In this document: positions 58,792 through 64,000 of the stretch, in pieces
Layout: each line of letters begins with the position of its first letter
How positions within the stretch are numbered: position 1 is the stretch's first letter
Position numbers and translations under genes: made by a program
Assembly (NCBI GenBank): GCA_903878415.1
Contig: CAIRHO010000067.1
Span: 1 to 64,000 of the forward strand
Source of the DNA: an uncultured Actinomycetes bacterium
GTDB taxonomy: Bacteria; Actinomycetota; Actinomycetes; Nanopelagicales; Nanopelagicaceae
Length of the DNA stretch: 64,000 nucleotides
Reading direction: 5' to 3'
The notes under the pieces: model-generated
The model's input: only the letters and a program-made list of their open reading frames with translations
Databases searched by the model: none
What the model was told of the DNA's origin: nothing

Positions 58792-60722
<1,931 letters not shown>

Positions 60723-60783: not shown

Positions 60784-61086
60784 TTAAGAAGCGCTAAATA
60801 TTTTGCGATTATTAGATTGGTCAATAATTGACAATCGGTCATCTTCAGTAAGACCGCCCCAGATTCCATATGGTTCTTGCGCTGCAAGTGCATGTGAGCG
60901 ACAGGCAGCAATCACTGGACATGAAGCACAGACGGCTTTTGCAGCATTCTCGCGCGCTTTCCGGCGTGGGCCACGCTCACCATCTGGATGAAAAAACATC
61001 TCGGATGGCAGATCCCGACAAGCGCCTTGATATTGCCATTCCCAAGAATCAGCGATTGGCTTTGGCAGGCGAGAGAGCTCGGTCAT
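60784..61086 (-). CDS. WhiB-family Fe-S transcription factor (WhiB3/WhiD-like)
   Basis: 100 aa from the ATG at 61086 (MTELSRLPKPIADSWEWQYQGAC). Four cluster cysteines: C23 and C53, C56, C62 in AVCASCPVIAAC. The beta-turn motif GIWGGL (74-79) follows. FFHPDGERGPRRKARE and VIAACRSHAL are closest by eye to mycobacterial WhiB3 and Streptomyces WhiD. The place beside groESL and guaB matches whiB3. Such proteins bind a [4Fe-4S] cluster and sigma-A region 4. An upstream ATG at 61110 lies in the spacer of the predicted promoter, so it is rejected as start. Confidence 0.93.
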   Translation of the reverse strand: MTELSRLPKPIADSWEWQYQGACRDLPSEMFFHPDGERGPRRKARENAAKAVCASCPVIAACRSHALAAQEPYGIWGGLTEDDRLSIIDQSNNRKIFSAS

Positions 61087-61092
61087 GGCTCC

Positions 61093-61121
61093 AATGTACA
61101 ACCGCGCCATAGGTTGTTCAA
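61093..61121 (-). promoter_or_regulatory. whiB promoter, leaderless and spanning an inverted repeat
   Basis: On the minus strand, TTGAAC (61121-61116), 17 bases, TACATT (61098-61093), then GGAGCC and the whiB ATG at 61086. The expected first transcribed base is the A of the ATG. TGAACAACC (61120-61112) and GGTTGTACA (61103-61095) form an inverted repeat with an 8-base centre that overlaps both promoter boxes and fills the spacer, the placement used by MerR-family regulators. Confidence 0.6.
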
Positions 61122-61186
61122 GTCTTTACCCTACTTTTGGTGCGTTTCAAGTGGTGAGTTGGCTCTCAACGCGGCAGCATTGCGGC

Positions 61187-62089
61187 ATGAGCATGCCGGA
61201 AACTGAGTTTCTTACGGTGGCAGCTGTTGCCCGCCGAATTGGCGTAGCGCCGGCCACCCTGCGAACCTGGGATCGTAGATATGGATTAGGTCCGAGCCGT
61301 CATGCAAGCGGCAGTCATAGGCGATATTCAGATTTAGATGTTTCCCGCCTGACTTTAATGCGAAAACTAATTAGCACCGGGGTTGCTCCAGCAGATGCTG
61401 CATTGACAGCTGTCGCGCTAAAAGAGAAAAGTGGAGTATCTAAAGAAGTTAGGCGAAAAGTTACTAAAGCGATTGATTCGCCAGATATCTTAATTGCAAC
61501 TTTGATGCGAGCCGCGAGCGCTCTTGATTGTGATTTGGTCGAAGAAATAGTCTCGACTCAGATAAAAAAAGTTGGGGTTGCAACTTGTTGGCGAGAGTTG
61601 ATTTCTCCTTTACTAATTCAAATTGGCGAGAGTTGGGAAGAGGGCAGAGGCGAAATTGAAGTTGAACATATGCTTAGTGAAGTATTACAGAGAACGCTTC
61701 GTGAAAATCAAGAGCCACTTAGTAAGCCGATAAATACCCGCCCAGTATTACTAGCTTGTCCAGGTGAAGAGCTTCATACCTTGCCACTACATGCGTTGGC
61801 AGCTGCGCTATCAGAGCAAAATATCTCAGTACATTTCCTTGGTGCGAGAACTCCGATTTCGGCGCTGGCGGCTGTTGTAAAACGCGCAGCACCACCAGCA
61901 GTTTTCTTATGGGCCACTATGGCATCAAATGGCGACCATAAAATTGTTTCAGCGCTACCGACGATTCGACCAACTCCAAGGATTTTGCTTGGTGGACCGG
62001 GTTGGCAGGTCGAAAATTGCAAGGCCGCAACCTTTGTTACAGATTTAGATCATGCTTGTCGTGAAATTACGCGGGCGGTCGGCGCTTAA
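61187..62089 (+). CDS. MerR-family regulator with B12-binding domain, CarH/LitR-like
   Basis: 300 aa from ATG 61187 (another possible ATG at 61193). Winged helix near 8-75: FLTVAAVARRIGVAPATLRTWDRRYGL and HRRYSDLDVSRL. A four-helix bundle follows with W150, E160 and H161 in W-x9-EH. The Rossmann B12 domain has H197 in GEELHTLPLH, the lower cobalt ligand position. Spacing from W150 to H197 is 47 residues, against 46 in Thermus CarH as I recall it. CarH proteins bind DNA as adenosylcobalamin tetramers in the dark and release it in light. The residue after W150 is Glu, where Thermus CarH has the light-state upper-ligand His. Divergent from whiB. Confidence 0.85.
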   Translation: MSMPETEFLTVAAVARRIGVAPATLRTWDRRYGLGPSRHASGSHRRYSDLDVSRLTLMRKLISTGVAPADAALTAVALKEKSGVSKEVRRKVTKAIDSPDILIATLMRAASALDCDLVEEIVSTQIKKVGVATCWRELISPLLIQIGESWEEGRGEIEVEHMLSEVLQRTLRENQEPLSKPINTRPVLLACPGEELHTLPLHALAAALSEQNISVHFLGARTPISALAAVVKRAAPPAVFLWATMASNGDHKIVSALPTIRPTPRILLGGPGWQVENCKAATFVTDLDHACREITRAVGA

Positions 62090-62098
62090 AACCACCGA

Positions 62099-63235
<1,137 letters not shown>

Positions 63236-63253: not shown

Positions 63254-64000
63254 ATGACTGACATTGAATTTGCCCCGGGAAAGCGCGCCAGAACTGCGTA
63301 TTCATTTGATGACCTTTCGATTGTGCCCTCCCGCCGCACTCGCGAACCTGATGAGGTTTCAATTTCCTGGCAGATTGATGCTTATAAATTAGCTCTTCCT
63401 ATGTTGGCGGCTCCAATGGATTCGGTAGTTTCACCAGAGACTGCGATAGCAATCGGCAAATTAGGTGGCGTCGGTGTTCTTAATTTAGAAGGACTCTGGA
63501 CTCGTTACGAAAATCCAATTATTCCGCTGGGCGAGATATCTTCTTTGCCAAATGATCAAGCAACTCGAAGAATGCAAGAAATTTATCAAGCTCCGATTCG
63601 TCCAGAATTAATTAAGGCCCGGATTGCAGAAATTCGTGCAGCTGGCGTAACAGTTGCAGCCGCGCTTTCACCTGCACGCACTGCGCAATTTTACAAAGCT
63701 GTGGTCGATGCTGGAGTGGATATATTTGTAATTCGTGGCACCACAGTAAGCGCGGAACACGTTTCAGCTAAAACTGAACCGTTAAATTTAAAGAAATTTA
63801 TCTACGAGCTTGATGTGCCAGTAATTGTTGGTGGCTGTGCCACTGCTTCAGGTGCGATGCATTTAATGCGCGCTGGTGCGGCTGGCGTCTTAGTTGGGTT
63901 TGGTGGCGGAGCTGCCCACACAACTCGCCAAGTGTTAGGAATTTCGGTACCGATGGCTTCTGCCGTTGCTGAAGTTGCTAGTGCACGTCGCGAATATTTA
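63254..64000 (+). CDS. guaB3: GuaB3 family IMP dehydrogenase-related protein (partial, 3' end beyond window)
   Basis: 249 codons to the window edge, no stop. AYSFDDLSIVPSRRTREPDEVSISWQIDAYKLALPMLAAPMDSVVSPE is the GuaB3 N-terminus, and VGGCATASGAMHLMRAGAAGVLVGFGGGAAHTTRQVLGI the phosphate-binding region. There are no CBS domains. The loop equivalent to SICTTR of IMP dehydrogenase reads AAHTTR, with His in place of the catalytic Cys. A guaB-guaB3 pair is standard in Actinobacteria. A GuaB3 of cyanobacteria has been reported as a GMP reductase; activity here is open. Confidence 0.93.
   Translation, partial: MTDIEFAPGKRARTAYSFDDLSIVPSRRTREPDEVSISWQIDAYKLALPMLAAPMDSVVSPETAIAIGKLGGVGVLNLEGLWTRYENPIIPLGEISSLPNDQATRRMQEIYQAPIRPELIKARIAEIRAAGVTVAAALSPARTAQFYKAVVDAGVDIFVIRGTTVSAEHVSAKTEPLNLKKFIYELDVPVIVGGCATASGAMHLMRAGAAGVLVGFGGGAAHTTRQVLGISVPMASAVAEVASARREYL

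Follow-up and report, generated by a model that had tools for sequence, protein, structure and literature searches.

The gene at positions 61187..62089 (+ strand) of the window, that is, of the whole 64,000-nucleotide stretch of DNA analysed, encodes a MerR-B12 regulator of the LitR/CarH-like kind (300 aa), possibly a sensor of light or of B12 that has so far escaped notice. Our favoured explanation, which we hold with about even confidence, is that this protein is a LitR-type adenosylcobalamin (AdoCbl) switch, probably light-gated, that would control the divergently transcribed whiB3 gene and itself. The ATG at 61187 is kept in two close relatives, and an alternative start lies at 61193. Three Pfam domains scored above their curated cut-offs, confirming the proposal of a first-pass annotation that a MerR helix-turn-helix is joined to a cobalamin domain. 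These are MerR_1 (1e-14; residues 10-71, 61214..61399, + strand), with the recognition motif RTWDRRYG, which reads RQWERRYG in Thermus CarH (TtCarH); the B12-binding_2 four-helix cap (4e-8; residues 104-171, 61496..61699, + strand); and the B12-binding Rossmann domain (2e-9; residues 187-274, 61745..62008, + strand). The same three domains, MerR helix-turn-helix, B12-binding_2 and B12-binding, define class I LitR/CarH proteins. TtCarH was the top PDB match of the window protein (1.2e-19), with CtMerR also among the closest structures, and a profile-profile comparison of the family with TtCarH aligned 269 columns at 99.7% probability. We found no other MerR-B12 gene in the source genome (G000), where the second match was an HspR-sized frame of 134 aa.

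The four residues named in the first-pass annotation for the cobalamin domain, W150, E160, H161 and H197, were found at exactly those positions. In the cap domain (all + strand), W150 is encoded at 61634-61636, E151, which occupies the position of TtCarH His132, at 61637-61639, and E160-H161 at 61664-61669. The Rossmann domain contributes E195-x-H197 (His codon 61775-61777), P200, G219-x3-P223 and G269-G270, together with W242 (61910-61912, + strand), which is Ser in TtCarH. The arrangement W150-x9-E160-H161 corresponds to the Wx9EH cap motif of class I LitR/CarH proteins (PMC9304148). In 70 orthologues, comprising 29 from the same family and 41 class-level members of the core locus described below, the positions of this motif are kept in 66 to 70 sequences: E160 is invariant (70/70), as are H197 (70/70) and P223 (70/70), H161 is present in 69/70, and W150 and W242 in 66/70 each. 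The single change at H161, EH to ER, occurred in L027 (G011), and Phe replaces W150 in the orthologues of G040:C23 (L056), G067 (L156), G174 (L171) and G265 (L181). The residue after W150 varies (Glu, Ala, Gln, Arg, Ser and others) and is His in none of the 70. Because W150, E160, H161 and H197 are near-invariant and the gene is under purifying selection, with dN/dS of 0.06-0.18 within the genus, their pattern is not a product of chance. Against the published class I B12 motif, D/ExHx2G/P-x41-SxT/V-x22-27-GG (PMC9304148), the window protein matches in E195-x-H197-x2-P200, the x41 spacing and GG269-270, with Ser replaced by Trp242; against the SignatureFinder light signature of GxxW, EH, GxxH and GxxxP (PMC11796333), it matches three of the four elements, GxxH being instead GxxxH (G193-x3-H197). 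The alignments support a predicted CarH/LitR-kind pocket for cobalamin, and one that is strongly constrained. In G040, a genome 93% complete whose merR-B12 carries W150F, searches for both families of adenosyltransferase and for the cobalamin riboswitch gave no hit, and this may possibly be a lineage in which AdoCbl sensing has decayed.

The surroundings of the gene and its divergent promoter, which go beyond the account given in the first-pass annotation, connect it with a core locus rather than with light-response genes. The divergent partner and proposed target is a WhiB gene (60784..61086, - strand; Pfam Whib, 3.7e-24) with an ATG at 61086 and a longer start at 61110, which we take to be of the WhiB3/WhiD type from synteny and from the sequences of Mycobacterium and Streptomyces. 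WhiB3 is the orthologue of WhiD (PMC4255298). The conserved neighbours, recognised by sequence and synteny, are groEL upstream (59088..60722, + strand) and, downstream, a guaB-like IMP dehydrogenase gene (62111..63235, + strand) followed by a guaB3-like gene that runs beyond the end of the window (63254..64000, + strand). The encoded GroEL has a His-rich C-terminal tail (60681-60719). When 246 genomes from across the class were searched with a profile, 112 of them gave strong merR-B12 homologues. The core order, groEL / whiB3 (divergent) / merR-B12 / (TPR) / bldM-like response regulator / guaB / guaB3, was found whole or in part in 41 of 51 sampled class-level loci, five of which, all from one family, lack whiB3. 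Most of the other ten are light-type loci, with crtB-crtI and an ECF sigma gene, photolyase and an ECF sigma gene, the Streptomyces order ECF-litR-photolyase-SDR or, in G042, photolyase and SDR-DUF2867 genes. In many families merR-B12 is separated from guaB by a TPR-like gene and a response regulator gene of LuxR type (BldM-like), as in L058, L060 and others, L060 also having a HisKA_3 gene. The survey therefore points to one protein family with two kinds of member: a core-locus form that has been passed on vertically and includes the window gene, and forms located in light clusters, among them LitR.

Within the bacterial family of the source organism, merR-B12 and whiB3 were both present in 33 of 37 genomes and both absent from the other four (G005, G021 and G032, which belong to one genus, and G008), where adenosyltransferase genes remain. 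We rejected this joint loss as proof of a functional pair, since one deletion suffices to explain it and there are exceptions at class level: merR-B12 occurs without whiB3 in G042 and G044, and whiB3 without merR-B12 in some class members. In G042 (L054, 3-3788), the merR-B12 relative lies beside SDR-DUF2867 and DNA photolyase genes.

The region shared by whiB3 and merR-B12 contains a conserved promoter/operator element, TTGAACAACCTATGGCGCGGTTG (61099..61121, - strand), made up of the whiB3 -35 and spacer; it is followed directly by the putative -10, TACATT (61093-61098, - strand), and six bases further by the whiB3 ATG. A TGAACA half-site overlaps the -35, and the spacer holds the dyad ACAACC-N8-GGTTGT. 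A strict sigma-70 scan of 60950-62150 picked no promoter, because TTGAACAACCTATGGCGCGGTTG and TACATT together supply only 8 of the 12 consensus promoter bases. With a tolerant pattern, the element was found as a single copy in the source genome and at the whiB3 promoter in nearly all other scanned family genomes carrying the pair, and was absent from the three scanned genomes without it (G005, G008 and G021); G007 was missed by the pattern, but matrix scoring detected a variant element there. At class level, 36 intergenic regions were scored with a family-derived matrix, and 34 of them scored higher than any of 30 shuffles; TGMACAA half-sites, which fit the TnnACA half-site of CarH, numbered 27 against 1.6 expected, the element itself contributing part of these and both statistics being based on simple block shuffles. 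In addition, 11-bp tandem half-site copies resembling a CarH operator are present in two regions, TGCACAAGTTTTGAACA in G046 and TGAACAACTTATGAACA in G146. A second conserved element, GTTTCAAGTGGTGAG (61144..61158, no strand assigned), which precedes the merR-B12 ATG by some 30 bp, was recognised by eye within the family only, and is accounted for neither as a -35 nor as an operator.

One alternative, which we consider unlikely on balance though not negligible, is that TTGAACAACCTATGGCGCGGTTG serves only as the whiB3 core promoter, or as a site for WhiB3 or some other factor, and that merR-B12 does not act there. The sequence TTGA(A/C), a 17-bp spacer and TANNNT do read as -35 and -10 hexamers, and in many class members TTGACC or TTGACT takes the place of the TnnACA half-site and breaks it. 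However, the spacer bases are conserved as strongly as the hexamers, the TGMACAA half-site is enriched as described, and TTGTGCAAG persists upstream of merR-B12 in G042, where whiB3 is missing. In our reading, TTGAACAACCTATGGCGCGGTTG would be the promoter of whiB3 and would incorporate a binding site for a regulator encoded nearby, with merR-B12 as the leading candidate and WhiB3 or a third factor as possible others.

The first-pass annotation depended on a genomic route to AdoCbl, and the source genome encodes one. A PduO-type adenosyltransferase is present at G000:C40 (1e-62), no CobA-type enzyme having been found in this genome, and a cobalamin riboswitch at G000:C29 (34.5 bits; cut-off, 31.5) immediately precedes a set of genes for an SCO2322-family protein, a CbiQ-like protein, a duplicated ABC ATPase and an ECF S component. 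The same gene arrangement has been reported as a putative cobalamin uptake system in acI actinobacteria, in which B12 synthesis is absent (PMC5301498). From these genes, we infer that the organism can make AdoCbl by import and adenosylation with the PduO enzyme. Other B12 proteins seen in the genome are MetH and a methylmalonyl-CoA mutase C-terminal subunit, the latter encoded as a stand-alone B12 subunit about 8 kb downstream of merR-B12, beyond the window (L063, 10592-11014, on G000:C67), and at a similar distance in several family genomes. The genome is streamlined (1.36 Mb) and encodes one microbial rhodopsin; the source organism is therefore probably an actinobacterium of sunlit water, in agreement with the first-pass guess, and may belong near the Nanopelagicales (acI).

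The strongest rival to the light sensor is that the protein senses B12 status, the AdoCbl level reached by import and adenosylation setting its DNA binding while any effect of light is incidental. This reading, which we rate as rather improbable, accords with an organism probably dependent on imported cobalamin (riboswitch-led ECF operon and PduO adenosyltransferase; compare acI, PMC5301498), with a core locus containing no pigment or photolyase gene, and with the lack of the residues that drive light disassembly in CarH. On the other hand, in CarH the adenosyl group is contacted by the Trp and EH that are conserved here, close relatives are located in light-response clusters, and there are no B12 metabolic genes in the immediate neighbourhood, the uptake operon having its own riboswitch.

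Less probable still is a classical CarH/LitR role, in which the protein would repress distant carotenoid, photolyase or rhodopsin genes and the proximity of whiB3 would be incidental. There is precedent for this in the family (PMC9758184, PMC9304148), and rhodopsin is encoded in the source genome. However, the tandem triple TnnACA operator of CarH type (11-bp nnnnTnnACAn) was found nowhere in that genome, relatives showing no excess over a reversed control; the conserved element is at the whiB3 promoter only; and the locus is kept class-wide, also in lineages in which no rhodopsin was detected. The least probable reading, a CarA-like regulator independent of B12 with a fossil pocket, draws on the deviations Trp242, Glu151 and GxxxH and on the precedent of Myxococcus xanthus CarA, which has the His motif without using B12 (PMC9304148), but the Wx9EH motif has lost its Trp in CarA, while all of W, E, H and the ligand His stay nearly invariant here over the whole class, and we regard this reading as very improbable.

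The light-gated LitR-type switch, then, would work as follows. Imported cobalamin would be adenosylated by the PduO-type enzyme, and H197 would keep AdoCbl in the base-off form while W150 and E160/H161 cover its adenosyl group; binding of cobalamin is, in our estimate, highly probable. By analogy with known photoreceptors, the regulator would sit on the whiB3 promoter in its AdoCbl-bound form during darkness, and light would most likely break the Co-C bond to give a light-altered state of the regulator, a response to light being likely. Lacking a His132 equivalent, the protein would have to pass on the signal by a non-bis-His route, as proposed for CtMerR and other photoreceptors without His132. 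Its main site of action would be the shared whiB3/merR-B12 intergenic region, at the TGAACA-type half-site over the whiB3 -35, with the whiB3 promoter as target being slightly favoured. Light, or loss of AdoCbl, could thereby alter the expression of whiB3 and of the regulator itself, in either direction, and so connect light with redox regulation by the Fe-S protein WhiB3. The light side of this reading is supported by analogy, in that, once the core locus is set aside, the nearest relatives occupy the LitR position, next to genes for ECF sigma factors, carotenoid synthesis (crt) and photolyase. Against the explanation as a whole stand the absence of His132 (0/70), Trp242, GxxxH, the unconserved TtCarH contacts, the lack of a triple operator, and the overlap of the element with a promoter, which leaves room for binding by WhiB3 or some other factor; and, further, G042 and G044, with merR-B12 and no whiB3, some class members with whiB3 and no merR-B12, and G040, with the gene and no adenosyltransferase detected.

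Proteins of this kind are already known. What appears to be new, as far as the non-subscription literature goes, is an orthologue group that occupies the core locus next to whiB3/whiD and bldM throughout the class, together with its pocket, which has Trp242 and no His132, and the conserved element. Cultured freshwater actinobacteria change their transcriptomes between light and darkness (PMC8591293); CarH, cobalamin and photoreceptors were not mentioned in that paper when its text was searched, and merR-B12, present in 33 of 37 sampled family genomes, would be a concrete candidate sensor. More tentatively, and with somewhat less than even confidence, we suggest a class-wide photoreceptor, ancestral or sister to LitR, that gates WhiB3/WhiD by AdoCbl and light from the shared divergent promoter and would represent a soluble, pigment-unrelated green-light sensor in streamlined, rhodopsin-bearing freshwater actinobacteria. 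The position of merR-B12 in the whiB3(whiD)-bldM-guaB locus would couple light or B12 status, class-wide, with redox and developmental regulators.

Comparison with known systems shows where the CarH-like label given by the first-pass annotation holds. TtCarH (PDB 3whp/5c8d) has the same three domains and is 28% identical to the window protein; its W131, E141, H142 and H177 all have in-register counterparts, with nine residues between W and E in both proteins and an H161-H197 interval of 35 residues against 34 in TtCarH, bearing out the claim of almost equal spacings. TtCarH His132 is replaced by Glu151, the Ser of SxV by Trp242, and the dimer/tetramer contacts R176, D201, G160 and G192 by L196, R221, S179 and N212. 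His132 couples photolysis to conformational change and tetramer loss in TtCarH, an H132A mutant remaining mostly tetrameric (PMC10442372). Because His132 and these interface residues are not conserved, tetramer loss, which the first-pass annotation had offered as an assay, is a poor prediction for the window protein. The neighbourhoods also differ, crtB/phr in TtCarH and the groEL-whiB3-guaB core here. Orthology with Thermus CarH was rejected on the grounds of the missing His132 and the different interface residues; the triple operator is missing too, and the NCBIfam CarH equivalog NF052513 gave 107 bits for the window protein and 510 for TtCarH (cut-off, 400); since the LitR-position protein of Streptomyces scores only 50, this shortfall is no argument against photosensing. 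M. xanthus CarA also combines MerR and B12 domains and retains the His motif, but lacks the Trp of Wx9EH and functions independently of B12 (PMC9304148), whereas the window protein retains the motif.

By sequence, the window protein is nearer to actinobacterial LitR than to Thermus CarH. The LitR-position protein from a carotenoid cluster on an S. atratus plasmid is 38% identical to it, and the two have in common the MerR-B12cap-B12Rossmann order, W-x9/10-EH, ExHx2P, Trp242 and Glu at position 151. The tree separated the actinobacterial proteins, those of Streptomyces among them, from TtCarH as a single group; support was moderate and the outgroup branches were long. Streptomyces LitR, like the window gene, has a transcription regulator as its divergent partner, but adjoins an ECF sigma gene and a crt cluster, the S. 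atratus gene having crt genes as neighbours and, on its divergent side, a reading frame of ECF-sigma-like type interrupted by a stop; no crt, ECF sigma or photolyase gene adjoins the window gene, its neighbours being whiB3, guaB and groEL. In S. coelicolor, LitR is described as a coenzyme-B12-based repressor in the dark and an activator of the litS promoter in the light, and its activity in S. avermitilis depends on supplied AdoB12 (PMC12705666). CtMerR (PDB 8jbs), experimentally a light-responsive CBD protein, is 24% identical to the window protein, keeps Ser at position 242 and differs in its DNA-binding helix, but shares the W, EH and lower-ligand His and, like it, has no His at the His132 position. 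It carries Arg there and still responds to light (PMC11796333), so a non-bis-His route exists, and the window protein may offer a further His132-free photoreceptor variant for the comparison of signalling routes.
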